Origin: a virus
IMG/VR virus record: IMGVR_UViG_3300032163_000725
Span: 1 to 41,936 of that record
DNA: 41,936 bases
Direction: 5' to 3' (one strand)
Below are positions 1 through 41,936 of the stretch, one piece after another (positions within the stretch are counted from its first letter, which is position 1; every line of letters starts with the position of its first letter). The notes beneath the pieces were generated by a model. The model did no database searches, was not told where the DNA came from, and saw only the letters and a program-made list of their open reading frames with translations. The translations under genes were made by a program, and so were the position numbers.

Positions 1-127
1 TGTAAAAGCAACAAGTCAATTATCCGGAACAGATTATAACCCCGAAAAAGCTACAGACCCCGCAAAATCGCTTACAGGGGCAATCGAAAATAATTCATGG
101 ACGTCAGCATCTGGCGGGCAGGCGAAC
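1..127. repeat. Terminal direct repeat, left copy (circular contig)
   Basis: These 127 bases are identical to the last 127 bases of the window (41810-41936). The repeat lies in the middle of a coding region that reads straight through when the ends are joined. A length of exactly 127 is a common assembler k-mer, so the repeat is more likely an assembly overlap of a circular or circularly permuted genome than a biological terminal repeat. Confidence 0.95.
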
Positions 128-4665: not shown

Positions 4666-5043
4666 ATGAAACGCACCATAGTAACATTGTTGATTCTGCT
4701 TGTATGCCGGACTGCCGTGGCCCAGGAAACCACGGCGTCCTGGTACTCGCGCGCCTCGTGCGCCCGGGAAGGAACCGGCGGAGCGGATATACGGATGGCG
4801 AACGGAAGGAGACTCGTAGATGAAGATCTCACGTGTGCGGCATGGAATTACAGATTCGGCACGGTACTTAAAGTCACTAATCTCCGGACAAAAAAATCTG
4901 TCACGGTTACTGTTACCGACAGAGGCCCGGCGAAAAGACTCGTCCGAATTGGAAGAATATGTGACCTCTCGCGCGGAGCATTTGAGAGATTAGCGCCGCT
5001 GTCGGAAGGGATAATACCGGTAAAAATAGAGAGGATAAAGTGA
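4666..5043 (+). CDS. Secreted RlpA-like double-psi beta-barrel protein (likely cell-wall lysis)
   Basis: A 125-residue protein with an N-terminal signal peptide (MKRTIVTLLILLVCRTAVAQ, likely cut after Ala19) and a complete small DPBB domain: TASWYS, MANGRRL, FGTVLKVTNLRTKKSVTVTV, TDRGPAKR, ICDLSRGAFERLAPL. This is the RlpA family, of which some members are septal lytic transglycosylases acting on peptidoglycan in the periplasm. The DRGP and DLS motifs are present. The His often seen before the PFGT-type motif is Trp here (CAAWNYRFGT). No other endolysin is recognisable in the genome, so this is the best candidate for wall degradation. Whether it is catalytically active cannot be told from sequence. 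Confidence 0.8.
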   Translation: MKRTIVTLLILLVCRTAVAQETTASWYSRASCAREGTGGADIRMANGRRLVDEDLTCAAWNYRFGTVLKVTNLRTKKSVTVTVTDRGPAKRLVRIGRICDLSRGAFERLAPLSEGIIPVKIERIK

Positions 5044-5417
5044 GAAACGAGAGAGGGCAATTCATCAAAGGAAGTAACGGAAGACCAGGGAATGTCATCC
5101 CTGCCGATATCAGAAAAAAGATATCAAGCACGTTGACTGGCAGATATCAAGGCGAGGATAGCCCGACGTGGAAGGGCGGTAGATGGAAAGACGAGATGGG
5201 ATATATAAGGATCCCCATCCAGGCAGGATCCGATGCTTACGTCTATGAACATCGGATGGTGATGGAGCACATGATCGGCAGAAAGCTCAAGGCCGGCGAG
5301 ATGGTCCATCACATCAATGGCGTTAAGCATGACAACCGCCCTGTGAATTTAAGATTATTTATCAGCAGATCAGAGCACGTGAAATATCATGCGACGGAGG
5401 TGGCAAATGCGATGTAG
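5040..5417 (+). CDS. HNH homing endonuclease 1
   Basis: A 125-residue free-standing HNH endonuclease. The N-terminal part has the NUMOD3-like DNA-binding pattern (DIRKKISSTLTGRYQGEDSP, TWKGGRW), then GYIRIPI, EHRMVMEHMIG and the catalytic core MVHHINGVKHDNRPVNLRL, with a closing SEHVKYH. It starts at a GTG in a GTGA overlap with the RlpA-like gene and overlaps the next gene by 11 bases, so it sits exactly at a gene junction. Such enzymes spread by cutting related genomes that lack them. It resembles HNH genes 2 (7529) and 4 (18527). Confidence 0.9.
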   Translation: MRNERGQFIKGSNGRPGNVIPADIRKKISSTLTGRYQGEDSPTWKGGRWKDEMGYIRIPIQAGSDAYVYEHRMVMEHMIGRKLKAGEMVHHINGVKHDNRPVNLRLFISRSEHVKYHATEVANAM

Positions 5418-7528: not shown

Positions 7529-7966
7529 ATGCCAACTGGAGTATATGACAGGACTAAGTCAAGAACGAACCTCGGAGAGTTCGGGAAAAGGCCTCCATGG
7601 AACAAAGGCATAACAGGACAATATTCAAAAGAATACAGGGAAAAAATTAGTAACGGAGCAATGGGAAATAGATCCGCATGGAAGGGTGGGCGCAGAATTA
7701 GTTGGAATGGATATGTGCAGGTTTATAATCCCACACATCCATGCTGTGACAATCGCGGATATATCCGTGAACATAGAGTTGTAGTGGAGGCGCAAATAGG
7801 TCGATATCTTCTACCTACAGAACAAGTCCACCACCGTGGAACAAAAGACGACAACCGTCCATGCATGTTGATGGGATTTACTACCAGGGCAGCTCATAAT
7901 AGATTTGAAAAAGGGTGTGTAATTAAACTCGAGGAGATAATCTTCGACGGGAGGAAGTTAATATGA
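7529..7966 (+). CDS. HNH homing endonuclease 2
   Basis: A 145-residue HNH endonuclease with a NUMOD3-like N-terminus (PPWNKGITGQYSKEYREKIS, AWKGGRRI), GYIREHRVVVEAQIGRYL and the core VHHRGTKDDNRP. The usual HHINGxxDDNR pattern is shortened to HHRGTKDDNR, so activity is uncertain. It starts after AAGGAG and overlaps the next gene by 4 bases (ATGA), again at a junction inside the recombination operon. The 78 bases before it hold only a 19-codon ORF (7470-7529) of no clear meaning. Confidence 0.85.
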   Translation: MPTGVYDRTKSRTNLGEFGKRPPWNKGITGQYSKEYREKISNGAMGNRSAWKGGRRISWNGYVQVYNPTHPCCDNRGYIREHRVVVEAQIGRYLLPTEQVHHRGTKDDNRPCMLMGFTTRAAHNRFEKGCVIKLEEIIFDGRKLI

Positions 7967-12538: not shown

Positions 12539-12705
12539 GCGGCAATGATTTTATGAAAAAGAGCTTCAAGGTCGGCGGCTACACGAAGCCGGACAAGGAC
12601 ACCTGCGCACGCTGCCGCAAGGAGATCACGACCGCGATGTACAGAGTCAAGGGCCGTAAGCTACACCAGGCGTGCTACCACAAGGAGCAAGCATGCGCAA
12701 AGTGA
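12535..12705 (+). CDS. Small zinc-binding (LIM-like) protein (56 residues)
   Basis: The ATG at 12535 follows AGGAGTGAC and is preferred over an in-frame start at 12391. The protein carries CARCRKEITTAMYRV and LHQACYHKE, i.e. CxxC then HxxCxxH, one zinc finger of LIM-like or treble-clef type. It overlaps the first radical SAM gene by 13 bases, so its translation is probably coupled to the accessory operon. The function is unknown. Confidence 0.65.
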   Translation: MSGNDFMKKSFKVGGYTKPDKDTCARCRKEITTAMYRVKGRKLHQACYHKEQACAK

Positions 12706-14087
12706 TGATGGCCTGGCCGGCGCTTAAGGATCCAAAGGGCTATGCGACTTCGGCTCAAAACAGGCAGTTTCAATGGCTCAAGGATCCCTTCTTCGCATAC
12801 CCGATCGTCCCTGCCCTTGCTATGACCATGCTCGCGCGCGCGGGGCACATCGTGAATTGGGTGGACTGCATAGCCGAGGGCCTGAACGATGTCGACTTTG
12901 CCCGGAAGCTCGTGGCGATTCATCCCGAGTATATAATCCTCGAATGCTCAACACCTATCATCAAGCAATACTGGGAAATCATAAATGGCATTAAGCTACA
13001 CCTGCCGGACATCAAGATCATCCTATGCGGCGATCACGTGACCGCGCTCCCGGAAGAAAGCAAGAAAGCATGTAAGGCTGACTTCATTGTGGAAGGCGGC
13101 GACTGGCACTATAAGGTCTTTGAGATTATCAATGAGAAGCCGTGGGACCAGAAGCAACCGATGCCTTTTATAGACAGAGTGTTATCGAAGTGGTGGCTCT
13201 ACGCCTATAAGAACGGCAACTTCAAGTACCTGCCCGGAACATACATCATGAGCGCGATAGACTGCTGGCACGCCAAGTGCACGTTCTGCTCATGGGCCAC
13301 ATACCACAAGAACTATTATCTCAGGCAGCCGAAAGACGTCCTGGATGAGATCGACTACCTGACGAATGCCGGGTTTAAAGAGATCTTTGATGACTCCGGC
13401 ACCTTCCCGGTAGGACCATGGCTCAAGGAGTTCTGCGAGGGCATGATCGCCCGGGACCTGCCGCGATATATATCCTTCGGATGTAACATGCGGTTCGGGG
13501 CCGTTAACCAGGAGGAGATGAACCTCATGGCCAAGGCCGGCTTCCGATTCGTCCTGTGGGGCCTTGAGAGCGCGAACCAGGCAACGCTTACCCGACTCAA
13601 TAAAGGCTACAGCCCGACAGATGTGGCGCTCGATCTACACGCCGCGAAGAAGGCCGGGCTCGAGTCACACCTGACCGTAATGTTCGGCTATCCATGGGAA
13701 AGCTACAAGGAGGCAAGGGCGACATATGATCTCGCACGTGGATTGCTTATCAAAGGCTTTGCTGAGAGCGCGCAGGCGACAATCTGCATACCATACCCGG
13801 GCACGCCTCTCTGGAAGGAATGTAAAGAGCAAGGACTCCTCACAACCGAGGAGTGGGCAGACTATGACATGTCAAAGGCCGTGATGAAGGTGCCATACCC
13901 GGAGAAGGAGCTGTTCAATTTCCAGCGCGGCATATACAACACGGCGTTCGATCCCCGGTTCCTACTGCGTAAGCTCGGCAAGATAAAGTCACTTAACGAT
14001 CTCAAGTATTACCTGCGCATAGCGCGCAAGGTATATGACCGCTTCGGACAGTGGCATAGCTTTGAACCGCAAAGACCGTGTAAGTAG
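12693..14087 (+). CDS. B12-binding-type radical SAM enzyme 1
   Basis: A 464-residue protein with ATG at 12693 after AAGGAG. Residues 1-150 resemble the cobalamin-binding Rossmann domain of class B radical SAM enzymes (VPALAMTMLARAGHIVNWVD, IILECSTP, DIKIILCGDHVTALP). The iron-sulfur motif is CWHAKCTFC (Cys191, 196, 199), spaced C-x4-C-x2-C instead of the standard C-x3-C-x2-C. Downstream motifs are normal (FRFVLWGLESANQATLTRLNKG, MFGYPWESYKEA, IPYPGTPLW). Such enzymes methylate or rearrange unactivated carbons, often in lipids or natural products. It opens the accessory operon. The substrate is unknown. Confidence 0.9.
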   Translation: MRKVMMAWPALKDPKGYATSAQNRQFQWLKDPFFAYPIVPALAMTMLARAGHIVNWVDCIAEGLNDVDFARKLVAIHPEYIILECSTPIIKQYWEIINGIKLHLPDIKIILCGDHVTALPEESKKACKADFIVEGGDWHYKVFEIINEKPWDQKQPMPFIDRVLSKWWLYAYKNGNFKYLPGTYIMSAIDCWHAKCTFCSWATYHKNYYLRQPKDVLDEIDYLTNAGFKEIFDDSGTFPVGPWLKEFCEGMIARDLPRYISFGCNMRFGAVNQEEMNLMAKAGFRFVLWGLESANQATLTRLNKGYSPTDVALDLHAAKKAGLESHLTVMFGYPWESYKEARATYDLARGLLIKGFAESAQATICIPYPGTPLWKECKEQGLLTTEEWADYDMSKAVMKVPYPEKELFNFQRGIYNTAFDPRFLLRKLGKIKSLNDLKYYLRIARKVYDRFGQWHSFEPQRPCK

Positions 14088-14089
14088 TT

Positions 14090-14118
14090 TTGACAATTTG
14101 GTAAAAACATGGTATACT
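14090..14118 (+). promoter_or_regulatory. Consensus promoter of the inserted HNH-like gene
   Basis: TTGACA (14090-14095), a 17-base spacer and TATACT (14113-14118), the same boxes and spacing as at 3900-3928. The predicted start is near 14125, 18 bases before the ATG at 14143, with AAGGAGG in the leader. The inserted gene therefore seems able to drive its own expression. Confidence 0.8.
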
Positions 14119-14142
14119 TCTATAAAATAGAAGGAGGTATAC

Positions 14143-14640
14143 ATGTTTGACAAAAAGGAATGGAGCAGGAAGTATTACCAAAGTAACAAAAAGAGAATCC
14201 TGGAATGCGGAAAGAGATGGTGGAAAAATAATCCTGAAAAAACAAAAAAATATAGGATAAATAGTAATGCTCGGTCCAGGGAATGGTACTATAAAAATAG
14301 AGAATATGTAATACAGCGAGAAAGAGAATACCGAAAAAGAAGATATGAGAAATATCCATGGTTAAGAACCTATGAGAATATTCAAGCGAGAGTAAACAAT
14401 AAGCCAGAGTATATAAGATACGGGATAAAAAACTTATTAACGAAAGAAGATATAAAATTTTTATGGATTCGAGATAAAGCAAGTAGCATGATTATGCCAA
14501 GCATAGATAGAAAAGACGGATATAAAAATTATACTTTAGAAAATTGTCAGTTTATCGAATTAACTGACAATTTAAGAAAGCCAAGAGCTTGGCGCAGGAA
14601 AGATATTAGTTTGCGAAATTTAAAAGGATATCCAAAATGA
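14143..14640 (+). CDS. Putative HNH-type endonuclease 3, AT-rich insertion
   Basis: A 165-residue, very basic, Tyr/Arg/Lys-rich protein. The N-terminal half is a run of charged helices (KEWSRKYYQSNKKRILE, REYVIQREREYRKRRYEKYP). The C-terminal part has PSIDRKDGYKNYTLENCQFI, a pattern seen in phage HNH-like nucleases (SIDRxDxxxxYTxxNCxF). Base composition is clearly more AT-rich than the flanking genes, and it has its own promoter, so it is probably a recent mobile insertion between the radical SAM and glycosyltransferase genes. It ends in an ATGA overlap with the next gene. It is of a different HNH subtype from the other three. Confidence 0.7.
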   Translation: MFDKKEWSRKYYQSNKKRILECGKRWWKNNPEKTKKYRINSNARSREWYYKNREYVIQREREYRKRRYEKYPWLRTYENIQARVNNKPEYIRYGIKNLLTKEDIKFLWIRDKASSMIMPSIDRKDGYKNYTLENCQFIELTDNLRKPRAWRRKDISLRNLKGYPK

Positions 14641-15356
14641 ACGAACTCGTATCCGTCATTATCCCCACAACTGACAAGGAAATGCCGATCACGCAGAAGT
14701 GCGAATACTGCCTGAAGAACTCGACCTATAAGAACATCGAGATCATCGTGGTCAACGAACAGAAGGAACGGTCAGAGCAACGCAACATCGGGATCGCGCG
14801 CGCGAAGGGCGAGTACCTGCTGTTCCTGGACAGTGACCAGTACGTATCATCCCGGCTTATATCTGAATGCGTGGGCCTGATGAAGGGCGGATATGATGCG
14901 GTCTATATCCCCGAGGTCATAATAACCACAGGATGGTTCGGGCGGCTCCGCAACTGGGAGCGGCAGTTCTATCTCGGGACACCGGTGGACGTGGCCCGCT
15001 TCGCCAAGGGATCAGTGATCGGTACGTTCGATGAAGGACTCCGGGGACCGGAGGACAGCGATTGGGACAGGCGGATCCAGGGACACAAGGCGATCAGCCG
15101 GAACGTCGTATATCACGATGACAATGTGACCGTCCGTTCGTTCCTGGAAAAGAAGGCGTACTACTCAAAGAGCATGGGCCGCTATTACGAGAAGTGGCCG
15201 CAGGATAAGGTGCTCAATTTCTGGTATAGGTGCTTTTGGATATTCATGGAGGATGGCAAATGGAAGCGATTTCTGGCACGGCCACTGTCAGCACTGGCAG
15301 TCATGGCCTTAATATTCGCAAGGGGAGTGATATACCTATGCGCCAAAAAGTCCTAA
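14637..15356 (+). CDS. Family 2 glycosyltransferase
   Basis: A 239-residue GT-A fold enzyme: VSVIIPTTDKE, NIEIIVVNEQ, RNIGIARAKGEYLLFLDSDQ with the metal-binding DSD at residues 65-67, and GPEDSDWDRRIQGH with the acidic acceptor-site motif. The last 40 residues include a hydrophobic stretch (ARPLSALAVMALIFARGVIY), so it may sit on the inner membrane face. It transfers a nucleotide-activated sugar to an unknown acceptor. It overlaps the preceding gene by 4 bases and the next by 19, as part of the accessory operon. Confidence 0.9.
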   Translation: MNELVSVIIPTTDKEMPITQKCEYCLKNSTYKNIEIIVVNEQKERSEQRNIGIARAKGEYLLFLDSDQYVSSRLISECVGLMKGGYDAVYIPEVIITTGWFGRLRNWERQFYLGTPVDVARFAKGSVIGTFDEGLRGPEDSDWDRRIQGHKAISRNVVYHDDNVTVRSFLEKKAYYSKSMGRYYEKWPQDKVLNFWYRCFWIFMEDGKWKRFLARPLSALAVMALIFARGVIYLCAKKS

Positions 15357-16300
15357 TTATAGCACCGTTCCATCGCGGAATCGGAGGCGCCGAGACTTAT
15401 CTCATGGGCCTCATGGAGATAGCCTCGAAGCGATTCGACATATCCCTGGCCTCGCTCGCCAAGCCGCCGGAAGCCTGGCAAGGCACGCCGATCAGCAAAG
15501 TAGCCGGGATATGCTGGGAGCTCCTGCGCGATGCCTGGCGATATCGGAAGCTCGACATCAAGACCGTGGATTGCCATGGCTTACAGGCTGCGCTTGTCGG
15601 CGTAATCCTCGGACAATATTACAAATTCAAGATGTGCGTAACGATGCTCGCTCTTTACGACTTCAAGGACCGGCCCTGGTGGTTCCGCTTCGCATGCCGG
15701 TGGATCCTCAATCATGCCGACAAGATATTCGTGGAAGGCGAGACAGGCAAACAGGACTTGCTGGCATGCGGTGTGCACGAGGGCAAGATCATCAAGTTTA
15801 TGCACTGGGTAGACCTGGACATATACAAGCCGGCGCCGCGCGAGCATAAAGGCGTCCGGGTGCTATTCGTAGGCCGACCGATCCCGATTAAGGGCAAGCA
15901 CATCATCGAGGAAATCGAGCGCAAGCTGTTCTATCTGAAGGACCTGACGTTTACTTACGTCGAGAACGTGCCGCATAAAGACCTCGTCAAATACTACCAG
16001 GCCGCCGATATCCTTGTTGTGCCATCGCAATACTCGGAAGGCTTCCCACGAGTGGTGTTCGAGGCGGCGGCGTGCGGATGCATTATTATTGCTAATTGCT
16101 CAGGAGCGTTGCCAGAACTAATCAAGGACTTTGGTCTTGCAGCATACTATGACAAGAGAATAGACATCTATTCTGGATTGATAAAAGAATTATACGAGAA
16201 CAGGATGGCATTAAATATAATGCAAACTCGAACACGTCTCTACGCCGAGAAGTTCTTCACACCGAAAAATGCGGAGGTGATACTTAATGAGTACGCATAG
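15338..16300 (+). CDS. Family 4 (GT-B) glycosyltransferase 1
   Basis: A 320-residue GT-B enzyme starting at ATG 15338 (MRQKVLIIAPFHRGIGGAET). It shows the donor-domain strand VRVLFVGRPIPIKGKH and the E-x7-E motif in EGFPRVVFEAAACGC (Glu234 and Glu242), both typical of GT4 retaining enzymes using nucleotide sugars. It overlaps the GT2 gene by 19 bases and the next small gene by 14. The acceptor is unknown; a lipid-linked glycan is the natural suggestion from its neighbours. Confidence 0.9.
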   Translation: MRQKVLIIAPFHRGIGGAETYLMGLMEIASKRFDISLASLAKPPEAWQGTPISKVAGICWELLRDAWRYRKLDIKTVDCHGLQAALVGVILGQYYKFKMCVTMLALYDFKDRPWWFRFACRWILNHADKIFVEGETGKQDLLACGVHEGKIIKFMHWVDLDIYKPAPREHKGVRVLFVGRPIPIKGKHIIEEIERKLFYLKDLTFTYVENVPHKDLVKYYQAADILVVPSQYSEGFPRVVFEAAACGCIIIANCSGALPELIKDFGLAAYYDKRIDIYSGLIKELYENRMALNIMQTRTRLYAEKFFTPKNAEVILNEYA

Positions 16301-16451
16301 AAAATTCTGGCCAGAAGTATTGGGCATGAGGCTGTACGAAGCGGGAGGCGTATCTTTTTATGCGTGGAATTATAAACACGCAAAGAAGAAGTCCGGCAAT
16401 AAAGAATTGTTTGTCATAAGCGAATATGGATATCCAATAAAATGCGTATAG
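16287..16451 (+). CDS. Small protein of 54 residues, unknown
   Basis: ATG at 16287 after GGAGG opens 54 codons (MSTHRKFWPEVLGMRLYEAG, then VSFYAWNYKHAKKK). It overlaps the genes on both sides, filling a gap of about 140 bases between the GT4 and radical SAM genes, which supports a real gene. It is aromatic and basic and has no recognisable motif. Confidence 0.55.
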   Translation: MSTHRKFWPEVLGMRLYEAGGVSFYAWNYKHAKKKSGNKELFVISEYGYPIKCV

Positions 16452-17767
16452 CCTTCTGTATCGCCGAGGACATAAACATCGGAGCCGGCTACGTAATAGC
16501 GCACCTGAAGGCCCAGGGGCACCAGGTCAAGCTATTCCTGGATCCGAGGCAGTATGACCGCGGCTATGCCCAGAACGGCCTGCTGGCCCGTGCTTTGTCG
16601 CAAAGGCGCCATATCTTAAGGCGCATCAAAGCCTTCAACCCGGGCATGTGCCTATTCAGCGCAGTAACGGCGAACTACCAGTGGGCGCTCAGTATGGCCG
16701 AGGCGGTCAAGCGTATATTACCAGGGACCAAGATCGTGTTCGGCGGCGTTCACGCCACGCTCGTGCCGGAGGAGGTCCGCAAGCACGCCTTCATCGATGA
16801 CGTCGTAGTCGGCGATGGCATCTCGCACTTCGGCGGGACCTTCGACCCGGAGCGCTTATGGCCAGACCGTGAGATCTTCCTCGAGCAGTTGCCGCCTATC
16901 CACAGGCGATACCAGATCTTCATGACCTCGGTCGGTTGCCCTTTTAACTGCTCATACTGCGGCAACGAGCAGATGCGCAAGGTCAGCCAGTTCAAGTTCG
17001 TCCGGCGCTCAGTCGACAGCTGTATCGCGGAGCTCTCGAACCTGAAAGTCCGCGGCATGCGCTACGTCCTATTCGTGGATGATATCCTGACATGCGATAA
17101 GAAGTGGCTGCTTGAATTTATGCCGCGGTATAAAAGAGTAATCGGCCTGCCGTTCTGCTGCTTCGGACATCCGAAGTATCTCGATGACGAAGTGGTGGCT
17201 ACGCTAAAGGTCGGAGGCTGCCACACCGTGTGGATCGGCATACAGACAGGCGATGAGGGCCTGCGTAAGAATATACTGAACCGGCCGGAGACGAACCAGG
17301 AGATCGTGGATGCGTCCGCGCGCATAAAGAAGTGCGGCATGAAGCTCATGGTGGATCATATCTTCGGGATCCCAGGGGAAAGCGCCATGTCGAACGACAT
17401 CAGCAATAATTTATACACCGTGATCAAGCCGGACATAGTGAACTGCTACAATTTATTATACTTCCCAAAAGCCAAGATCATCGAGCATGCCCTGGCGCTC
17501 GGGAACCTGACGCCGAGGCAGGTCACCGAGATCAACGAAGGAAAGGGCGCCGTGTACCAGATCACGAATAAGAGCCAGGACTTCTACCGAGAATACGCCA
17601 AGAGCTTCTGCGCCATCCCGGTCGGCGGACTGGTCGCAGAGGTGCTCCCGATGTCCATGATCAAGCTCATCGCGTACGCGCGCGCGGGCCGCATGTTCAT
17701 CCCCTGGGCGATGATACAGAATGAGATATATTTTACACTCAAAAGCTTATGGAGGAAGATCACGTGA
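16442..17767 (+). CDS. B12-binding-type radical SAM enzyme 2
   Basis: A 441-residue protein. The N-terminal Rossmann-like domain (IAHLKAQGHQVKLFLD, NPGMCLFSAVTANYQWAL, TKIVFGGVHATLVPEEV) matches B12-binding radical SAM enzymes. The iron-sulfur motif is standard: CPFNCSYC at Cys166, 170 and 173. Later segments are typical of the family (VGGCHTVWIGIQTGDEGLRK, LMVDHIFGIPGES). The C-terminal helical region after residue 350 is hydrophobic and basic. It overlaps the CDP-alcohol phosphatidyltransferase gene by 4 bases, so the two are made together and may act on the same lipid-like substrate. Confidence 0.92.
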   Translation: MRIAFCIAEDINIGAGYVIAHLKAQGHQVKLFLDPRQYDRGYAQNGLLARALSQRRHILRRIKAFNPGMCLFSAVTANYQWALSMAEAVKRILPGTKIVFGGVHATLVPEEVRKHAFIDDVVVGDGISHFGGTFDPERLWPDREIFLEQLPPIHRRYQIFMTSVGCPFNCSYCGNEQMRKVSQFKFVRRSVDSCIAELSNLKVRGMRYVLFVDDILTCDKKWLLEFMPRYKRVIGLPFCCFGHPKYLDDEVVATLKVGGCHTVWIGIQTGDEGLRKNILNRPETNQEIVDASARIKKCGMKLMVDHIFGIPGESAMSNDISNNLYTVIKPDIVNCYNLLYFPKAKIIEHALALGNLTPRQVTEINEGKGAVYQITNKSQDFYREYAKSFCAIPVGGLVAEVLPMSMIKLIAYARAGRMFIPWAMIQNEIYFTLKSLWRKIT

Positions 17768-18534
17768 AAGAATGGGCGCAAGTTTTATACGAACGCTATC
17801 TGAGTAAGCCCCTGATACGGTTATGCGTCATTACGGGCACAACGCCGAACCAGGTGACGATATACAATTTTTTAATGACGCTGATCCTGGGAGGGCTGTC
17901 CTTTGCGACCGGGCATTATTACGCAGGACTTATGATCTGTATCTTGAACGGCGTCCTCGATTATGTGGACGGCGACCTCGCGCGCGCCACGAAGCAATAC
18001 AGCAAGACAGGCGAATGGCTTGACTCGGGCGGCGATGTAATAATACAAAACAGCATCATGGCGGCCATTGCCTATGGTTTGCTCGTTGAGCACACAGGCG
18101 GAGGATTATCCCTTCCCGTGGCCGCCACCATGTTTTATTTTGTAGGGAACGCGGCGATGAACCTGATCAGCTTCCACTACAACACAACGTTCGGCTTCAA
18201 CTCGCATGCCGGGAGCGCACTGTTCCGCAAGTACATGGACACGAAGCCGCACCTGCTGAACCGCTTCCTTAAGAACCTGATAGACCCGACATCGAGCCAT
18301 ACCGGGATGATCTTCTGGACCATACGATATTGGCTGGTCTTGGGGATCCTGCTCAATCAGATGGCCGTAGCTTTTATGATTATAACTTCGATATTGGTAT
18401 TCAGAGCGACAGCCATGTACATAATCTATGCGCTACACCTCGCCGAATATAAGAAGCTCTGGCTGCTCCAGGCGCTGGCCATTATCGATGAGGGACGGCA
18501 AGAATATTATAACATTAGGATGAAAAATGGTTAA
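17764..18534 (+). CDS. CDP-alcohol phosphatidyltransferase
   Basis: A 256-residue integral membrane protein. The GTG at 17764 is chosen because it overlaps the upstream stop (GTGA) and has GGAGG 8 bases before; an ATG at 17749 is possible. It carries the full family motif D-x2-D-G-x2-A-R-x8-G-x3-D-x3-D: Asp66, Asp69, Gly70, Ala73, Arg74, Gly83, Asp87 and Asp91, in DYVDGDLARATKQYSKTG followed by EWLDSGGD. Several hydrophobic segments follow. These enzymes transfer a phospho-lipid or phospho-alcohol group from a CDP-activated donor to an acceptor alcohol in the membrane, as in phospholipid synthesis. I know of no established role for it in phages; context suggests a modified or glycosylated lipid. 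Confidence 0.92.
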   Translation: MKEWAQVLYERYLSKPLIRLCVITGTTPNQVTIYNFLMTLILGGLSFATGHYYAGLMICILNGVLDYVDGDLARATKQYSKTGEWLDSGGDVIIQNSIMAAIAYGLLVEHTGGGLSLPVAATMFYFVGNAAMNLISFHYNTTFGFNSHAGSALFRKYMDTKPHLLNRFLKNLIDPTSSHTGMIFWTIRYWLVLGILLNQMAVAFMIITSILVFRATAMYIIYALHLAEYKKLWLLQALAIIDEGRQEYYNIRMKNG

Positions 18535-18984
18535 GAGTAAGTGTAGATGTTGTGGGAAAATATTTAATGTCTATCCATATGAAATCCGTCGAGGGAGAGG
18601 AAAACACTGCAGCCGAAAGTGCTTTTATATATGGCAAAAGAAAAATATATTCACTCCTGAACGCAGAAAACAAATGAGTGATCTTGCTAAAAGTAGGGTC
18701 GGCGATAAAAGCCCGGGGTGGAAGGGTGGCATATATATAGATTATTATGGTTATCTCAGAAGATATATGCCTATGCATCCTTTCATAATAACTATGGCTA
18801 CGTCCGCGAGCACCGCCTTGTGATGGAGAAGCATATTGGTCGCTATCTTACTCCGGAAGAAGTGGTACACCATATCAACGAGATTAAGACAGATAACCGA
18901 ATAGAAAATCTTATGCTGTTTAAAAATGCGAATGAGCATACAAAATTTCATATGAAGGAAAGCGTAAAGTCTTATGCCGTATGA
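18527..18984 (+). pseudogene. HNH homing endonuclease 4, split by a frameshift
   Basis: Two overlapping frames make one HNH enzyme. The first (from 18527) has a zinc-finger-like N-terminus (KCRCCGKIF, KHCSRKCF) and NUMOD3-like [15 protein letters not shown] up to MHPF near 18782. The second (ending 18984) resumes with [20 protein letters not shown] and [20 protein letters not shown]. Inserting one base (or losing two) in CCTTTCATAAT would restore the reading. It overlaps the phosphatidyltransferase and DegT-like genes, again sitting at a junction. It is either a decayed gene or a one-base sequencing error. Confidence 0.85.
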
Positions 18985-19570
18985 AATCGTAAGACGTTTT
19001 GAGGAGCGGATCGCTGAGTACGCCGGCGCACGATACGGCGTGGCGGTGGAGAGCTGTACGGCGGCTCTCTTTCTGTGCTGTAAGTATCTCGAAGTAGAAA
19101 AAGTCGAGATACCTAAACACACATATCCGGGAGTGGCATGTTCCATTATTAATGCAGGCGGGAAAATACAATTTGATAATTGCGTCTGGACGCATGGATA
19201 TTATCAGTTATGCCCATATCAAATATATGACAGTGCATTGAGTTTTTTCCGTGGCATGTATATCCCCGGAAGTTTGTATTGCCTATCCTTCCACGCAAAG
19301 AAGCACCTGCCGATCGGCCGAGGCGGGATGATACTGACCGATAGCGAACTCGCCGCAACATGGCTACGTAAGGCACGCTTCGATGGCCGGAATGAATGCG
19401 CGCTGAAGGATGATAACATCGACATGGTCGGCTGGAATATGTACCTTACGCCCGAAGCGGCCGCACGCGGGCTCATGCTGTTTGACGCAATCAAGGACCG
19501 GGACCTGCCAGACCTCAAGGTAGAGGACCAGGGATACCCGGATCTATCACTCATAAAGGCCTATCGATGA
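18974..19570 (+). CDS. Miniature DegT/DnrJ-like aminotransferase
   Basis: A 198-residue protein, about half the usual ~370 of DegT-family sugar aminotransferases. It keeps the core PLP elements in order: [20 protein letters not shown] then [22 protein letters not shown], an Asp in YDSAL (residue 86), [16 protein letters not shown] with the likely PLP Lys110, and [17 protein letters not shown]. The segment between the Thr and Asp motifs is shortened and the C-terminal domain is absent. The family makes amino-sugars on nucleotide carriers. It could be an active minimal enzyme, a dimer relying on partners, or a remnant; its open frame and ATGA coupling favour function. Confidence 0.75.
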
Positions 19571-20115
19571 GTAAGCAATACTGGCAGGAGTTCTATCGTA
19601 AACACGACATCAAAGGGCATACGCCATTTGCCGAGTGGTGCCTGCCGTATATGCGCCAGCATCTATACGTGGCGGACCTTGGTTGCGGTAACGGCCGGGA
19701 TACTTATTACTTCGCTCGCAATTTTCACAGGGTCGTAGGGGTCGACTATGCCGTTAAACCTAAAAAATATAAAGAAGCTCATTTTGTACAGAAACCATTG
19801 GAGGACGTTATATCGAATGGGTGCTTTTACGATGTTGTATATTCCCGATTTTTCTTACACTCCATAGCATATCACGAAGTCGCTGACATTTTGAATTGGA
19901 CGCGGAACTTATTCCTTGCAGAGTTTCGTGCCAAGGGTGATGAACCGAAGCTATACCCGGACCATCCCCGGAACTTTATAGATGGCAATTCTTTTTTGAA
20001 GGACTTGGATCATTTCGGATTCGATATCATTCACTATGAAAAAGGTCGCGGCCTGGCCAAGTATAAAGGCGAGGATCCGCTTATCATAAGAGTGGTGGCA
20101 AAAAAGGAGAGATGA
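19567..20115 (+). CDS. SAM-dependent class I methyltransferase
   Basis: A 182-residue Rossmann methyltransferase. Motif I is VADLGCGNGRDTYYFAR (about residues 35-51), followed by RVVGVDYAV and YDVVYSRFFLHSI, the usual SAM-binding order. It is short, so probably a small-molecule enzyme, fitting sugar or lipid O- or N-methylation. It overlaps the DegT-like gene by 4 bases, and a sugar aminotransferase followed by a methyltransferase is a common pair in deoxy-sugar pathways. The substrate is unknown. Confidence 0.85.
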   Translation: MSKQYWQEFYRKHDIKGHTPFAEWCLPYMRQHLYVADLGCGNGRDTYYFARNFHRVVGVDYAVKPKKYKEAHFVQKPLEDVISNGCFYDVVYSRFFLHSIAYHEVADILNWTRNLFLAEFRAKGDEPKLYPDHPRNFIDGNSFLKDLDHFGFDIIHYEKGRGLAKYKGEDPLIIRVVAKKER

Positions 20116-20116
20116 T

Positions 20117-20536
20117 ATGGGATCAAAGCCAAGATTGGCGGACGCGCACGTAGAGCAGATCAGGGTGCTAAAGGGCGAAGGAAAGTCGGTCAAGGAGATC
20201 ATCGAGGTAATGGAGGCGACGTATACAGGCCTCAAGTTATCACCGTATTTAGTCTCCGGAGCGCTCAAACCAGTAAAAGGCGTGGCCATGGCCGGTGCTC
20301 CCACGGTTAAGGCGAAGCGCAAGTACCACAAACACGCGGAGAAGAAGGCCGCGGCAGAAGGATCCCCGGACCAGGACAGGGCGATCAAGGACATCCTGGC
20401 ACTACTCCAGGAGATCCACGGCGGCTACAGGCAGGTATTCTCATACCTGCGCAAGGAGCTCATAAAGAGCCGGCAGGAAGTATATCTCATGATGACCGGC
20501 GCCGGCATCGAGATCCCGGAGAGCACGATACAGTGA
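20117..20536 (+). CDS. HTH-like protein of unknown function
   Basis: A 139-residue protein. Residues 5-32 (RLADAHVEQIRVLKGEGKSV, KEIIEVMEA) look like the helix-turn-helix of resolvase or small regulator type. The middle is a basic linker (KAKRKYHKHAEKKAAAEG), and the C-terminal half is helical (IHGGYRQVFSYLRKEL, EVYLMMTGAGIEIPE). It overlaps the GT4 gene by 4 bases. It may be a DNA-binding regulator of the operon, but no family could be assigned. Confidence 0.6.
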   Translation: MGSKPRLADAHVEQIRVLKGEGKSVKEIIEVMEATYTGLKLSPYLVSGALKPVKGVAMAGAPTVKAKRKYHKHAEKKAAAEGSPDQDRAIKDILALLQEIHGGYRQVFSYLRKELIKSRQEVYLMMTGAGIEIPESTIQ

Positions 20537-21516
20537 TACTCATAATAGCAAACGCGCGTATCAAGGGCGGCCTATCCGGGAGCGACAATATCTATCTGAA
20601 CATGACCAGGCATGCCGGACATCATCGGACATGGGAGATGATGGATACGGACTTCCGGCCATTCGTTCTATGCTACATCTGGAAGATCGTCAAAGCCTGT
20701 TGGTGCGCGCTATGGGATTTTACAAAGTACGAGTTCGTATATTCGGCGAGTGACTTCTGGATGGATAGCCTGCCGGCGCTCATCCTGAAGCTTAAGGGCA
20801 ATAAGTGGGTAGCAGGCTTTTATCTATTCGCTCCCCGGGACACGTTTATATATTACTGGTCGCAGAAGATAACGATCTGGATCATTAACAAATTTGCTGA
20901 TGTCGTATGCGTTACGAACGAAAGCATGTTCAATTTCGATAAGCCGATGATCGCTGTCCACGGCGGCGTAGACCTGAAACTCGCATATCCCTCAAATGAC
21001 ATGAAGATATTCGATGCGGTGTTTATCGGGCGCCTACACTACACCAAGGGTATCGATGAGCTCATGCGGATATGGGATGGCGTCCTTAAGATTAAACCTA
21101 AAGCGCGCCTTGCAGTGATAGGCGATGGCGATACCGAAGTCGAGGCATTCAAAAAATGGCTTGACCGCACATCCGGCGTGACATGGTTCGGCTTCTTAGG
21201 GGAGGATCGCTTCGATGTTTATCGGAAATCGAAAATGGTTCTATATACAACGCCTCACTGCTATAGCCATTTTTCTATGGGGCCTGTTGAGGCTATGGCT
21301 TGCGGTTGCCCAATGGTGGCATTCGATATTCCAGTGATGGCTGACATTAAGCCGGAAGGATGCGAGATCTGTGTGAACCGACACTATTTTGTCAGGGTGA
21401 TAACAAGGGGATCAATGAAATCAAGAGAAGCAACCACCTGGGCTCGAACATGGGACTGGTCGACCAGGGCGCCGAAGATACTCAAAGAAATAAGGGAGAA
21501 GCTATGCGAATCTTAG
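20533..21516 (+). CDS. Family 4-like glycosyltransferase 2
   Basis: A 327-residue GT-B type protein starting at a GTG (GTGA overlap). It has an N-terminal strand ILIIANARIKGGLSGSDNIY, the donor-domain entry FDAVFIGRLHYTKGIDELM, VIGDGDTEVEAFKKWL and FSMGPVEAMACGCPMVAF. The second Glu of E-x7-E is present but the position of the first holds Ser, so catalysis may differ from canonical GT4 enzymes. It overlaps the RmlD-like gene by 13 bases. It probably adds a sugar in the same pathway as the other two glycosyltransferases. Confidence 0.85.
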   Translation: MILIIANARIKGGLSGSDNIYLNMTRHAGHHRTWEMMDTDFRPFVLCYIWKIVKACWCALWDFTKYEFVYSASDFWMDSLPALILKLKGNKWVAGFYLFAPRDTFIYYWSQKITIWIINKFADVVCVTNESMFNFDKPMIAVHGGVDLKLAYPSNDMKIFDAVFIGRLHYTKGIDELMRIWDGVLKIKPKARLAVIGDGDTEVEAFKKWLDRTSGVTWFGFLGEDRFDVYRKSKMVLYTTPHCYSHFSMGPVEAMACGCPMVAFDIPVMADIKPEGCEICVNRHYFVRVITRGSMKSREATTWARTWDWSTRAPKILKEIREKLCES

Positions 21517-22361
21517 TCACTGGTGCCGCAGGCATGATGGGCGAATCGATCAGGCGTGTCTTTAAGAACGACGAGATGATATATACCGATAAGCCGGAAC
21601 TTAACGTCGCCGATTATAATAGCGTGATAAGCATGATCAATAAACTGAACGGCGAAATTGATTATATTCTACACCTGGCCGCCGAGACAGACCTCGAGTT
21701 TTGCGAGAGACGTCCGGAGCTCGCGTATTACACCAACGCGATCGGCACGGTGAACATGGTGAAGCTCGCAGAGATCATGGATATCCCGATAATCTACATA
21801 TCAACAGCCGGCGTATTCTTAGGCGAGAAGAATAGCTACGATGAATTTGACAAGCCGGAACCGATCAATCACTACGGCCGGAGTAAGTGGTATGGCGAGT
21901 TCGCGGTAAGGACATACCCGAAGCATTACATCTTCCGCATGTCCTGGGCCATGGGAGGCGGGCCGGACCTCGATAAGAAGTTCGTCAACAAGATAATCAA
22001 GTTGGTCCATGAAGGACACAAGGAGATCGAGGCCATCGATGATGTGTTCGGATCACCGACATACCAGTATGACGTGGCAAGGACGATCCGCGCATGCCTG
22101 GAGCGGAAGATACCCTACGGCATATATCATGCGGCAGGGATAGGCACGGCTTCACGGTATGATGTAGCAGAGGCAATCGTTGACATATTAAATATGGACG
22201 TCGATCTTGTTATACCGGTGCCGAGCTCGCACTTTAACAATAAGTTCCCGTGCCCGCGCGCGCGTAACGAGGTTTTGAAAAGCGTGATAGCGCATCCATC
22301 CTGCATGCGGCCCTGGCGCGAATCACTGAAAGAATACCTGGAGGAATACTATGCTGCTTGA
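21504..22361 (+). CDS. RmlD-like NAD(P)-dependent sugar reductase/epimerase (extended SDR)
   Basis: A 285-residue extended short-chain dehydrogenase starting at ATG 21504 (MRILVTGAAGMMGESIRRVF). The nucleotide-binding TGxxGxxG is at residues 6-13, HLAAETDLEFCE follows as in RmlD (dTDP-4-dehydrorhamnose reductase), and the catalytic YGRSK has Tyr124 and Lys128. RmlD reduces the keto-sugar in the last step of dTDP-rhamnose synthesis. Other RmlABC genes are not in the genome, so it would work on a host intermediate or on a different nucleotide sugar. The reaction is inferred from the family. Confidence 0.85.
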   Translation: MRILVTGAAGMMGESIRRVFKNDEMIYTDKPELNVADYNSVISMINKLNGEIDYILHLAAETDLEFCERRPELAYYTNAIGTVNMVKLAEIMDIPIIYISTAGVFLGEKNSYDEFDKPEPINHYGRSKWYGEFAVRTYPKHYIFRMSWAMGGGPDLDKKFVNKIIKLVHEGHKEIEAIDDVFGSPTYQYDVARTIRACLERKIPYGIYHAAGIGTASRYDVAEAIVDILNMDVDLVIPVPSSHFNNKFPCPRARNEVLKSVIAHPSCMRPWRESLKEYLEEYYAA

Positions 22362-23865
22362 GTTTCTGAATATCTGGTGGGTGCTGGCGATCACGGCCGG
22401 GACCTGGTGCTATGTCCTGAAGTGCGGATTCGTATCGGATGACCATGCCGTTATCGCGGAGCGCAAGGACATCATCCCGGACCATGAGAAAAATCCAAAG
22501 AGCGAGAACCATTGGGTTAAGGTTTTTAACGATGGCATCGTAATGTTTTACCTGAACCGGGCGGTCCGCAAGGTGTTCGGCAATAAGCCGTTCGGCTGGC
22601 ACCTCCTGAGTTACTGCATCCATCTCATAAATACGTTCCTATTTTACAAGGTGGCACTCATGTTCGTATCAAACGATGCGGCTTTATGCGCCACGCTCAT
22701 CTGGGCTGTGAACCCGATGCAGAACCAGATCGCAGGCTGGTGCTCCGGCCGGCCTTACGGCATAGCGGCCATGATGGCGCTCGCCTGTATGCTCCTATGG
22801 CAATACCCTGTCGTAGTCGTGCCACTTTATGTGCTCGGAGTAATAACAAGCGTATCGATCGGATTCCTGCCGGTCATTCTAATGCTTGCGCATCCGGGCA
22901 CCTGGCAGGGAAGCGCTTATATCGGCGCGCTTATATTGGCCGTGCCGTTTGTGCTGTGGAAGTTCCAGAAGCGATTCTCCGTGAACGCTCTCGTGATGGA
23001 CAGGAAAAACTTCCACTTTCGCATGCGCCGATTTAATAACATCGTCCGCATTTATATGTATTATCTCGCCTCGCTATTCTTTCCGGTAACGATGGGATGG
23101 TATCACGATGCAGGGTTTGCCTACAATGAGAAGTGGGACGGCTTCAATGTGTGGGCCCTCGCAGGATACGCGACCGTGATCTATATCACCAGCCAGGGTG
23201 CCTTGGGCGCATGGTTCCTGCTCGGGATCCTGCCGCAAGCCAATATCTTCGCTACAAACTCCTACGTCCAGGATAGGTATTTATACTTCGGTAGCATGGG
23301 CCTGGCGATACTGATGGCGCCTTTGTGTGTTCAATACCCGGTGCTATTTGTGGCGATCGTGGCCATCTACGCGTCAAAGAGCTACACGTATTCGCGCCAC
23401 ATGATAAACGATGAGCACCTATACCGCGAGAACTGGCGCAATCATCCCCAGGCGACATACGCCATAAACAACCTGTCATTCTTTCTTATAAGCCAAAGGC
23501 GATATGAGGAGGCGCGCGCCTACATTGACCGCGGCCTGGCTATAGATAAAGACAATAAACTCCTATGGTATAACCTGGGTGTCACCTGGGCGGCCACTGG
23601 ACACTTCCAAAACCAAGAGGGGATCCAGCGATTCTTCCGCGCGATGGAGTGCTGGAAAAGAGCGCTACAGATCGAACCAAGGTGGAAGAAGCCGATGGAG
23701 GATCTGCAGAAGCTCGTCAAGGTGCTCGTAGACAATAAAATCGTAACGCTCGATAAGAACCAAGCGATGCCCGGGATGCCGGCGATACATGCGCCGCTAA
23801 TGAACAAGGAGGAACTGAGTGGAACAACGAATAATACAGAAGCTGGAGCCGCCGCCAGAAGTTAA
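22351..23865 (+). CDS. TMTC-like membrane glycosyltransferase (GT-C) with C-terminal TPRs
   Basis: A 504-residue protein with many hydrophobic segments in residues 1-350 and TPR-like repeats after 370 (NNLSFFLISQRRYEEARAYI, LLWYNLGVTWAATGHFQNQE, RALQIEPRWKKPM). The first loop carries the Asp-Asp pair expected of GT-C enzymes (FVSDDHAVI, Asp30-Asp31), and FGWHLLSYCIHLINTFLFYK and WCSGRPYGI recall the TMTC/PMT-like group. Such enzymes use a lipid-phosphate sugar donor and act on the outer face of the membrane. It is the only predicted outward-facing enzyme in the operon, so it may carry out the last transfer step. Confidence 0.8.
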   Translation: MLLEFLNIWWVLAITAGTWCYVLKCGFVSDDHAVIAERKDIIPDHEKNPKSENHWVKVFNDGIVMFYLNRAVRKVFGNKPFGWHLLSYCIHLINTFLFYKVALMFVSNDAALCATLIWAVNPMQNQIAGWCSGRPYGIAAMMALACMLLWQYPVVVVPLYVLGVITSVSIGFLPVILMLAHPGTWQGSAYIGALILAVPFVLWKFQKRFSVNALVMDRKNFHFRMRRFNNIVRIYMYYLASLFFPVTMGWYHDAGFAYNEKWDGFNVWALAGYATVIYITSQGALGAWFLLGILPQANIFATNSYVQDRYLYFGSMGLAILMAPLCVQYPVLFVAIVAIYASKSYTYSRHMINDEHLYRENWRNHPQATYAINNLSFFLISQRRYEEARAYIDRGLAIDKDNKLLWYNLGVTWAATGHFQNQEGIQRFFRAMECWKRALQIEPRWKKPMEDLQKLVKVLVDNKIVTLDKNQAMPGMPAIHAPLMNKEELSGTTNNTEAGAAARS

Positions 23866-23956
23866 GTGGGAAATGAAGCGGCAGGACGAAGGAAAGCTTC
23901 CGAAAAATCCTATGCTGCGCTTTATCAAAGTATTCTTCCTGGGCGATGGCTACTGA
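23819..23956 (+). CDS. Small protein of 45 residues, unknown
   Basis: GTG at 23819 lies 6 bases after AAGGAGG and opens 45 codons (MEQRIIQKLEPPPEVKWEMK to FFLGDGY). It overlaps the GT-C gene by 47 bases and the next radical SAM gene by 11. The strong ribosome site and coupling favour a real gene. No motif is recognised. Confidence 0.55.
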   Translation: MEQRIIQKLEPPPEVKWEMKRQDEGKLPKNPMLRFIKVFFLGDGY

Positions 23957-25280
23957 CATCCTGCTCGTAAATCCATTCTCATGGACCCGGGACGGCCGCG
24001 CGGCATATCTGCCATATGGGATATTATATATGGCGTCTTACCTGCGCAAGCGCGGCGTAAGCGTAGAAATACATGATTGTAATACCGCCGATTATGTCAT
24101 GGATCACATTAGCGAATCTAAGCCTGACACTATAGGCTTGTCCGTATTGACAGGACCCGTAATAAAAGAGGCTTTGGAAATATCCAGGAGCGTCAAGGAA
24201 CAGTATCCTGAAATCAAAATTGTATGGGGAGGACTCCATCCTACATTGTTTCCTGATAGCGTGAGGAGGGAAAAAAGCGTCGATTATATTATCCGCGGAG
24301 AAGGAGAAAAGGCGCTGGATAACTTATTGAACCACATGGAATATGGCAGCATCTATGACAACGCCTCGCTGATAGACCTGGACGCCGAGCCGATGCCGGC
24401 ATGGGATATGTTGCCAGACATCGGGCGCTATATCATGAACAAACACTACGGTGACCGGGTGCTTACGCTCAACACCTCGCGCGGGTGCGTAAACGACTGC
24501 GCCTTCTGTTTTAACAGCGCGATGAGTACACACAAGTGGCGCGCGCTATCGGCAAAGAACATATGGGCGCAGGTCGCGACCTTATATTTTCGATACGGCA
24601 TAAATGGCATACAATTCTATGAGGACAACTTCGATGTGGACAAGGAGAGAGTGAAGGAGTTCTGCCAGCTCATGATAAAGACAGGAATGAATAAGCACGT
24701 AAAATGGGCGCACTTCTCCTGCGTTAAGAAGGCGGACAAGGACCTGATCGACTATGAGCGAGAGGCCGGATGCCGCGAGATAGGATATGGCGTCGAATCA
24801 GGATCCAACCGTATATTGAAATTACTGAATAAGAACCAGACCACTAAAGATATCGAGCGCGCCTTCCGCGTGTGTAACAAGGCCAGAGTGAAAGCCACGT
24901 CTTTATTTATGATAGGGCTTCCCACGGAGACGGACCATGAGCTCAACGAGACGAAGAACCTGATCGGGCGCCTCCGCAGTTACCAGGATATATGTACCAT
25001 CTATCGGCCATATCCAAAAACAAAACTGCACGACATGTGCGGCATAAAGACTCCCGGGACGCTTGAAGCTCAAGCTGATTTTTATGCTTACGGAGAGCTC
25101 GACAAGGACGCGCGGAACGTCAGCGAGCTATCTACGGACATACTTCTCAAGGCACAGGCGTATTTTTATCGGAATACTCTCAAGAAGGAACTGCTATCCT
25201 GCGTAAGGGATTTTAATATTAAGCGGTTTATATATCTACTCAAGGAAGGGTTCAAATGGTTCAGGGCACATATTGCGTAA
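23946..25280 (+). CDS. B12-binding-type radical SAM enzyme 3
   Basis: A 444-residue protein. The N-terminal domain is a clear B12-binding-type Rossmann domain (ILLVNPFSW, YGILYMASYLRKRGVSVEIH, IVWGGLHPTLFPD, VDYIIRGEGE). The iron-sulfur motif is standard CVNDCAFC (Cys181, 185, 188), and the barrel motifs are typical (GCREIGYGVESGSNRILKLL, TSLFMIGLPTETDHELNETK). This layout matches class B radical SAM methylases and related lipid- or antibiotic-modifying enzymes. It ends the enzyme part of the accessory operon and overlaps a small gene by 25 bases. The substrate is unknown. Confidence 0.92.
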   Translation: MATDILLVNPFSWTRDGRAAYLPYGILYMASYLRKRGVSVEIHDCNTADYVMDHISESKPDTIGLSVLTGPVIKEALEISRSVKEQYPEIKIVWGGLHPTLFPDSVRREKSVDYIIRGEGEKALDNLLNHMEYGSIYDNASLIDLDAEPMPAWDMLPDIGRYIMNKHYGDRVLTLNTSRGCVNDCAFCFNSAMSTHKWRALSAKNIWAQVATLYFRYGINGIQFYEDNFDVDKERVKEFCQLMIKTGMNKHVKWAHFSCVKKADKDLIDYEREAGCREIGYGVESGSNRILKLLNKNQTTKDIERAFRVCNKARVKATSLFMIGLPTETDHELNETKNLIGRLRSYQDICTIYRPYPKTKLHDMCGIKTPGTLEAQADFYAYGELDKDARNVSELSTDILLKAQAYFYRNTLKKELLSCVRDFNIKRFIYLLKEGFKWFRAHIA

Positions 25281-25771: not shown

Positions 25772-25860
25772 CACTATCAGCAAGGCCGCATCAGTCATAG
25801 CGGCCCCACAGGCCCCTTAAGAGGGTTAACGCAGGCATCCTGCGTTGGCTCTCTTTTTTT
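25737..25860 (+). ncRNA. Candidate small RNA or attenuated leader, module C
   Basis: About 124 nt from the promoter to the terminator. It holds a hairpin GGCCGC (25784-25789) with GCGGCC (25800-25805) around a 10-base loop, then the long terminator stem. It stands 15 bases before the methyltransferase and terminase block, so read-through could control late or packaging genes. Confidence 0.45.
25819..25860 (+). terminator. Strong rho-independent terminator
   Basis: A stem of up to 17 pairs (25819-25835 with 25839-25855, three wobbles) around the loop CAT, with the core CGCAGG/CCTGCG, is followed by T at 25854-25860. It is the longest terminator stem in the genome. Confidence 0.9.
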
Positions 25861-41688: not shown

Positions 41689-41936
41689 AAACTGAACTTG
41701 ATTATATGGAGTACGCCTCAGATGCTGCCGCCCAGGCGGCGTACGTAACAAACGCATCGGTAAGCGGCACTTATGCCTCTCAATATCCACCGGTACAAAG
41801 CGGTACTTATGTAAAAGCAACAAGTCAATTATCCGGAACAGATTATAACCCCGAAAAAGCTACAGACCCCGCAAAATCGCTTACAGGGGCAATCGAAAAT
41901 AATTCATGGACGTCAGCATCTGGCGGGCAGGCGAAC
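41685..41936 (+). CDS. Discoidin-like tail-tip protein, 5' part (continues at base 1)
   Basis: ATG at 41685 (ATGA overlap with the Dit-like gene) opens MKTELDYMEYASDAAAQAAY, then VTNASVSGTYASQYPPV. The frame stays open to the window's end and, because the last 127 bases repeat the first 127, continues from base 2 to the stop at 593-595 for a total of 239 residues. See the entry at 1-595 for domains. Confidence 0.85.
   Translation, partial: MKTELDYMEYASDAAAQAAYVTNASVSGTYASQYPPVQSGTYVKATSQLSGTDYNPEKATDPAKSLTGAIENNSWTSASGGQAN
41810..41936. repeat. Terminal direct repeat, right copy
   Basis: Identical to bases 1-127. Removing one copy gives a circle of 41,809 bp. Confidence 0.95.

Follow-up and report, generated by a model that had tools for sequence, protein, structure and literature searches.

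Glycosyltransferases with which a phage alters the surface of its host are known from seroconversion (gtr) clusters, for example in P22-like Salmonella phages, where a flippase (gtrA), a bactoprenol glycosyltransferase (gtrB) and a type-specific membrane glycosyltransferase are encoded together. Here we describe a block of enzyme genes at positions 12,693-25,280 of the virus record IMGVR_UViG_3300032163_000725, which was analysed at its full length of 41,936 bases and is called the window below. The block resembles the gtr clusters in having phage-borne glycosyltransferases and one membrane glycosyltransferase-like protein. However, it comprises at least 11 enzymes instead of about three, including radical SAM proteins, a CDP-alcohol phosphotransferase and an aminotransferase, it is not accompanied by a visible integrase, and no flippase (gtrA) or gtrB-type gene was recognised in the window with Pfam. 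Glycosyltransferases, a mini-type DegT protein and a methyltransferase or radical SAM protein are also encoded in one gene run in Flavobacterium phage vB_FspM_immuto (MW353176) and Synechococcus phage S-SCSM2R (PQ898602), but these genomes measure 160 and 244 kb, and the CDP-alcohol phosphotransferase, the RmlD-like and TPR membrane proteins and the trio of B12 radical SAM proteins are not annotated there. An earlier note on this DNA had held that no phage system with this combination is described. The combination itself was indeed not found in the open-access literature, but phage clusters with DegT, glycosyltransferases and a methyltransferase or radical SAM protein have been deposited. Phage glycan clusters are thus already known, and it is the architecture of the module that appears to be undescribed.

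The block is best read as an old biosynthetic module that was handed down within phages. When 2.9 million viral contigs were scanned for the terminase, 80 loci were obtained, to which profiles of the module proteins added more, and whole contigs were taken for the closest of them. Alignments of relatives were needed, as single-sequence scans of viral contigs with the membrane/TPR protein or the CDP-alcohol phosphotransferase gave no match; megablast of the module against phage records gave none either. Apart from the window, the module is found in five related phages: G001, G002, G003 (near-identical to G012), G004 (near-identical to G011, with 119-bp identical ends) and G006/7, two contigs that we treat as one phage because their ends overlap by 55 bp and their sample number is the same. 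The gene order is identical in all of them, namely rSAM1, GT2, GT4a, rSAM2, CDP-alcohol phosphotransferase, a central cassette, GT4b, RmlD-like reductase and membrane/TPR protein, and the proteins are 32-68% identical to those of the window (rSAM1 46-63%, GT2 in the same position 45-57%, GT4a 32-38%, rSAM2 48-62%, mini-DegT 61-68%, GT4b 45-56%, membrane/TPR protein 47-58%). Most relatives have an extra GT2 gene 5' of rSAM1, which the window does not have, and three have a different methyltransferase gene 5' of the CDP-alcohol phosphotransferase gene. The earlier note had postulated one operon-like, phage-borne module of lipid and sugar enzymes, to be abandoned if the genes were scattered, unrelated morons in relatives; the five relatives hold the same genes in the same order.

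A tree of four concatenated module proteins was compared with a tree of the portal and the protease. Both separate the window, G004 and G001 from G002, G003 and G006/7 (bootstrap 100 and 100), and both place the window and G004 together on a side branch (bootstrap 100 and 97). The placement of G001 agrees, and the only difference lies in the arrangement inside the group of G002, G003 and G006/7. Therefore, the module and the virion genes have long been inherited together. This co-inheritance, together with a position before the packaging and head genes, could also be expected if the enzymes decorated the virion of the phage itself by capsid or tail glycosylation, as in some other viruses with their own glycosyltransferases. 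We consider this unlikely, because the CDP-alcohol phosphotransferase and the TPR protein are membrane proteins, which suit the chemistry of an envelope better than that of a cytoplasmic virion, and because in a related phage that lacks the module, its slot 5' of the ParB-methylase and terminase genes is taken by an O-antigen-ligase-like (Wzy_C) gene (L008:5964-7217).

The centre of the module, between the genes for the CDP-alcohol phosphotransferase and GT4b, is an exchangeable cassette. It contains mini-DegT without a cytidylyltransferase in the window and in G004, and mini-DegT with a cytidylyltransferase in G006/7. In G002, it encodes a phosphoenolpyruvate (PEP) mutase, a split phosphonopyruvate decarboxylase, an iron-alcohol dehydrogenase and a cytidylyltransferase, and G003 has all of these plus mini-DegT. 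G001 has a cytidylyltransferase gene in the centre, so that this enzyme is encoded there in four of the six module phages, and the PEP mutase and iron-alcohol dehydrogenase genes of G001 are found 3' of the TPR protein gene (L088:11553-13261), with no recognisable decarboxylase; this may mean a direct reduction of phosphonopyruvate or the use of a host decarboxylase. A partial contig, G008, carries genes for PEP mutase, the decarboxylase halves and the iron-alcohol dehydrogenase shortly 5' of the packaging genes. The earlier note had seen neither the exchange of this centre, with phosphonate-type genes in relatives, nor the HNH insertions described below, and it is this cassette that tells most about the chemistry of the module.

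In fosfomycin-type pathways, the early part of the phosphonate route runs through Fom1, Fom2, FomC and Fom3. At the level of family matches, the four functions of the route to a cytidine monophosphate (CMP)-phosphonate are present in G002 and G003, which carry the PEP mutase, decarboxylase, iron-alcohol dehydrogenase and CMP-transferase along with B12 radical SAM proteins, and G001 has them without the decarboxylase. Unlike in that route, the phage genes are split and short and stand among genes for glycosyltransferases and a CDP-alcohol phosphotransferase, and the window has no genes for carbon-phosphorus (C-P) bond chemistry. Among themselves, the phage PEP mutases share about 60% identity, and they have a true PEP mutase as best solved match (1m1b, 3.7e-54); the KxNS stretch is kept, and the preceding EDK motif is altered. 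The dehydrogenase is of the PsrA type, and the decarboxylase is present as halves. Among solved structures, the cytidylyltransferase of the relatives matches only ethanolamine-phosphate cytidylyltransferase and 5x3d; the latter chain bears the label PEP phosphomutase and is the cytidylyltransferase domain of Fom1. All of these proteins score below the NCBIfam equivalog cut-offs, and we therefore infer their substrates. No PEP mutase is encoded in seven phages that are more distant and have rSAM1-like or mini-DegT genes.

The best solved match of the family profile of the CDP-alcohol phosphotransferase is AF2299 (5.3e-12), among other solved CDP-alcohol phosphotransferases. AF2299 has the same motif and is fused to a cytidylyltransferase-like domain, whereas in the module phages the cytidylyltransferase is separate from the phosphotransferase or missing. 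Outside the lineage, a PEP mutase and a TPP-binding protein are annotated in Vibrio phage Va2 (MW073017; L264), so that phosphonate chemistry may not be restricted to the phages described here. In Va2, however, the PEP mutase is only 33% identical and is encoded outside any glycosyltransferase/CDP-alcohol phosphotransferase operon, among genes of nucleotide metabolism; the two Va2 genes flank those for ribonucleotide reductase.

It could be argued that the module is an ordinary phage cluster for the modification of lipopolysaccharide or O-antigen, with standard sugars only, and that the phosphonate genes of the relatives are unconnected additions. The lack of such genes in the window would agree with this, as would the frequency of mini-DegT in environmental phage glycan clusters and the similar glycosyltransferase/DegT clusters of deposited phages. 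This, too, is unlikely: the CDP-alcohol phosphotransferase and radical SAM enzymes occur in all six module phages, the cytidylyltransferase keeps its place in four of them, and the CDP-alcohol phosphotransferase, rSAM1 and the TPR protein have no relatives in 50,697 phage records. Less probable still is a diffusible natural product, such as a phosphonate or an aminoglycoside-like compound, that acts against competitors or shields the infected cell. In its favour, the PEP mutase, decarboxylase, iron-alcohol dehydrogenase, Fom1-like cytidylyltransferase and B12 radical SAM proteins of the relatives match the early fosfomycin route, and among solved proteins the apramycin enzyme AprD4 is closest to rSAM2 and rSAM3. 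But the membrane transferases and the three or four glycosyltransferases favour a glycan as the final product, and the window is without C-P genes; genes for export, resistance or peptide formation were not seen.

We propose, with moderate confidence, that the module builds a surface glycoconjugate with an activated amino-sugar or phospho/phosphono group and thereby alters the envelope of the host. The RmlD-like reductase and mini-DegT would make a deoxy- or amino-sugar nucleotide, and GT2, GT4a and GT4b would build up a short glycan attached to a membrane carrier. Next, the CDP-alcohol phosphotransferase would move a head group, activated as a CMP or cytidine diphosphate derivative, onto the glycan or a lipid; in the relatives, the transferred group would probably be hydroxyethylphosphonate. 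Modification of the head group or the sugar could fall to the methyltransferase and to the radical SAM enzymes of the B12 type, and the membrane/TPR protein, as a sugar transferase at the outer face, may finish the display. The central cassette would set the head group, which would be of the amino-sugar type in the window and G004, of the CMP-phosphonate type in G001 and G002, and of both types in G003. A receptor or the envelope would be changed as a result, with exclusion of competing phages (superinfection exclusion) as the simplest purpose. Reaction order, product, acceptor and purpose are all derived here from the gene families; of the lipid or glycan remodelling suggested in the earlier note, the module of lipid and sugar enzymes is thus observed, and the modified product and the envelope change are predicted. 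More tentatively, and with somewhat less than even confidence, it could be imagined that this one phage lineage has a modular pathway for CMP-activated head groups, including phosphonate, which the CDP-alcohol phosphotransferase couples to a glycan or lipid at the surface of infected cells, and in which the cassette (amino sugar, phosphonate or both) is swapped and the coupling machinery is kept.

Several observations weigh against the proposed surface glycoconjugate. No flippase, lipid-carrier ligase or dedicated polyprenyl-phosphate glycosyltransferase was recognised in the window. The window also has no PEP mutase, phosphonopyruvate decarboxylase, iron-alcohol dehydrogenase or cytidylyltransferase at E below 0.02 (relaxed thresholds), so that the substrate of its CDP-alcohol phosphotransferase would have to be a host product. 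As no integrase was seen among the window proteins searched, a lasting surface change of a lysogen is not supported. In a scan of genomes with TerL for the host, the best match (52%) was in a deltaproteobacterial metagenome-assembled genome, and none of 54 loci had module genes. Furthermore, mini-DegT, a putative aminotransferase, is without about half of a normal DegT protein, and the assignment of the membrane/TPR protein to the GT-C glycosyltransferases was confirmed by neither the profile nor the fold search.

Bacterial phosphonoglycoproteins carry phosphonates derived from PEP mutase on surface glycans and were proposed to be a shield against phages and grazers (PMC8931226); in our case, the genes are found in the phages themselves. 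No description of a phage PEP mutase, or of a module with this combination, was found in the open-access literature: a survey of phosphorus genes of terrestrial phages does not mention PEP mutase, and a reservoir study deals with viral genes for phosphonate degradation, not synthesis. The novel core, phage-borne and exchangeable synthesis of a phosphonate head group, is plausible but unproven. If true, phages that carry the synthesis genes would reverse the idea of the phosphonoglycan shield (PMC8931226) by rebuilding the surface, probably against competitors. C-P bond synthesis and CDP-alcohol chemistry would join the means by which phages alter host envelopes, with a defined and testable set of about ten genes, and a part of environmental phosphonate would be virus-made.

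The enzyme set named in the earlier note is largely borne out by Pfam, which supports three radical SAM proteins, GT2, two GT4, the CDP-alcohol phosphotransferase, DegT, the methyltransferase and RmlD, and every open reading frame (ORF) of the block is on the plus strand (Table 1). The motifs of most enzymes are intact. As to the three B12-type radical SAM enzymes that were claimed, rSAM2 and rSAM3 have both CxxxCxxC and a B12-binding domain, as class B radical SAM enzymes do. In rSAM1, the match to the B12-binding domain is under the Pfam cut-off (24.6 versus 32.1 bits), and the canonical CxxxCxxC is replaced by C-x4-C-x2-C in the window, with a first spacing of x4 to x13 across seven orthologues; the three cluster cysteines are kept, and a first spacing of 4-13 residues is unusual among radical SAM enzymes. 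A 43% relative of rSAM3 adjoins TerL in G005. In G003, rSAM2 (L093:13471-15720, minus strand) is, as seen by eye, split within CxxxCxxC by an insertion that resembles an intein and has an HNH-type region (CPYN/PLRGDTKV...VLVSN/CTFC); the first residue of the insertion is Pro, not Cys.

Membership of the CDP-alcohol phosphotransferase family is indicated by the motif DYVDGDLARATKQYSKTGEWLDSGGD at residue 71 and by 53.1 bits in Pfam against a cut-off of 22; no NCBIfam equivalog matched at or above its cut-off. The RmlD-like protein has dTDP-4-dehydrorhamnose reductase as best solved match (5u9c, 4.9e-47), and its 193 bits are under the NCBIfam equivalog cut-off of 224. Mini-DegT reaches 69.5 bits with Pfam DegT (cut-off 19.8), and SFH-x-KK and GG, the pyridoxal phosphate (PLP) lysine and GG motifs, are invariant in 46 relatives. 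Its AlphaFold2 model (pLDDT 94.4, pTM 0.91) has the PLP domain of sugar aminotransferases, with GDP-perosamine synthase, ArnB, PseC and WbpE as best Foldseek matches, but its 198 residues fall short of the full two-domain length of about 370, and the TM-score normalised by the full-length targets is about 0.40. Half-size DegT proteins of about 195-215 residues occur in 216 or more viral contigs; the 80 best of them (L118-L197) are 50-68% identical. In environmental phages they are a common part of glycan clusters, where their genes often adjoin those for a GNAT acetyltransferase and glycosyltransferases, and this family looks like a phage-specific minimal sugar aminotransferase.

The membrane/TPR protein had been called a GT-C/TPR enzyme, of which the TPR part is confirmed by profile. 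A fold search with a model of pLDDT 70 finds TPR only, and the membrane half matches no solved fold; among eight homologues, one matches Pfam PMT_2 (1.6e-3). SDDH and QDRYxY are invariant in all six module members, and SDDH and QDRYLY suggest a TMTC-like GT-C enzyme (GT105). With no GT-C profile or fold match, the GT-C label rests on these two conserved motifs.

Table 1. Features of the block and its 3' boundary in the window
Feature	Position	Strand	Evidence and remarks
rSAM1, radical SAM protein with weak B12-binding domain	12693..14087	+	Pfam Radical_SAM 1.2e-13; B12-binding 2.4e-5
HNH-like homing endonuclease ORF between rSAM1 and GT2	14143..14640	+	PHROG HNH/restriction endonuclease ~7e-4; G+C 0.41
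GT2, short glycosyltransferase	14637..15356	+	Pfam Glycos_transf_2 6.8e-12; FLDSD motif
GT4a, glycosyltransferase	15338..16300	+	Pfam Glycos_transf_1 8.5e-16; EX7E motif present
rSAM2, B12-binding radical SAM protein	16442..17767	+	Pfam B12-binding 8.9e-18, Radical_SAM 3.7e-16; motif CPFNCSYC
CDP-alcohol phosphotransferase	17749..18534	+	Pfam CDP-OH_P_transf 6.1e-14; D-x2-DG-x2-AR-x8-G-x3-D-x3-D motif intact
HNH endonuclease ORF broken by frameshift	18527..18972 (open part 18527-18823)	+	PHROG HNH 1e-3; remaining domain in another frame
Mini-DegT, DegT/DnrJ/EryC1/StrS-type putative aminotransferase, 198 aa	18974..19570	+	Pfam DegT 4e-19; PLP lysine region kept
S-adenosylmethionine-dependent methyltransferase	19567..20115	+	Pfam Methyltransf_11 3.3e-7; DLGCGNG motif
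Small protein	20117..20536	+	No Pfam or PHROG match; 34% relative in same region of related phage L007
GT4b, glycosyltransferase	20533..21516	+	Pfam Glyco_trans_1_4 8.4e-18; first Glu of EX7E replaced
RmlD-like NAD(P) sugar reductase	21504..22361	+	Pfam RmlD 5.6e-61
Membrane protein with C-terminal TPR	22351..23865	+	TPR_2 1.5e-8 sole profile match; six hydrophobic segments; SDDH and QDRYLY motifs
rSAM3, B12-binding radical SAM protein	23946..25280	+	Pfam Radical_SAM 2.3e-24, B12-binding 7.5e-23
Strong intrinsic-terminator-like hairpin	25819..25855	+	17-pair stem, then T-run; closes block before ParB-methylase/terminase genes

The genes of the block follow each other in the order of Table 1. 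Ribosome-binding sites point to likelier starts at 12,693 for rSAM1 (ORF from 12,672), 15,338 for GT4a (ORF from 15,230) and 21,504 for the RmlD-like reductase (ORF from 21,360). With these starts, 8 of the 13 junctions overlap by 4-19 bases and one has a spacing of 1 base; the earlier impression of overlaps of mostly 4-25 bases holds for these eight, and not for four gaps, of 55 bp after rSAM1, 150 bp before mini-DegT, and 141 and 80 bp. The 55-bp and 150-bp gaps adjoin the two HNH ORFs and local dips in G+C (0.41, 0.45). The first HNH ORF has no counterpart at that place in the relatives, and a promoter-like site (11/12) lies directly 5' of it at 14090-14118.

The first and last 127 bases of the window are identical and one gene spans the closure, so that the record is a circular, apparently complete assembly of about 41.8 kb. 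That host genes are here by chance, through an assembly chimera (which the earlier note had named as a refutation) or a recently captured host island, might be thought of a single contig from an environmental assembly with gene families of likely cellular origin, but is very improbable in view of the closed circle, the order shared with five other phages at 32-68% identity, the congruent trees and the lack of any rSAM1 relative among 187 pattern matches in 84,980 species genomes. The identical ends (window 1-127 and 41810-41936; 119 bp in G004 and G009) resemble assembler k-mer overlaps of closed circles, not biological terminal repeats.

On the 5' side, the block is preceded, from left to right, by genes for tail proteins, a DPBB (lytic transglycosylase-like) protein, a PD-(D/E)XK nuclease, RecT, an ATPase and VRR-NUC, and on the 3' side it is followed by those for the ParB-methylase and then the terminases, portal, protease and capsid. 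A reading as a defence island was rejected, as PADLOC gave no anti-phage system match in the window, only weak radical SAM and methyltransferase hits. Further HNH-like ORFs of the window are located at 5040-5417 and 7529-7966. Finally, an unrelated complete phage, G009 (L201-L203, IMGVR_UViG_3300009431_000520, 32-48 kb), also has genes for PEP mutase, the decarboxylase halves and the iron-alcohol dehydrogenase, accompanied by PseB- and PseF-like genes and by genes for an aminotransferase, a sugar transferase, glycosyltransferases and a membrane protein.

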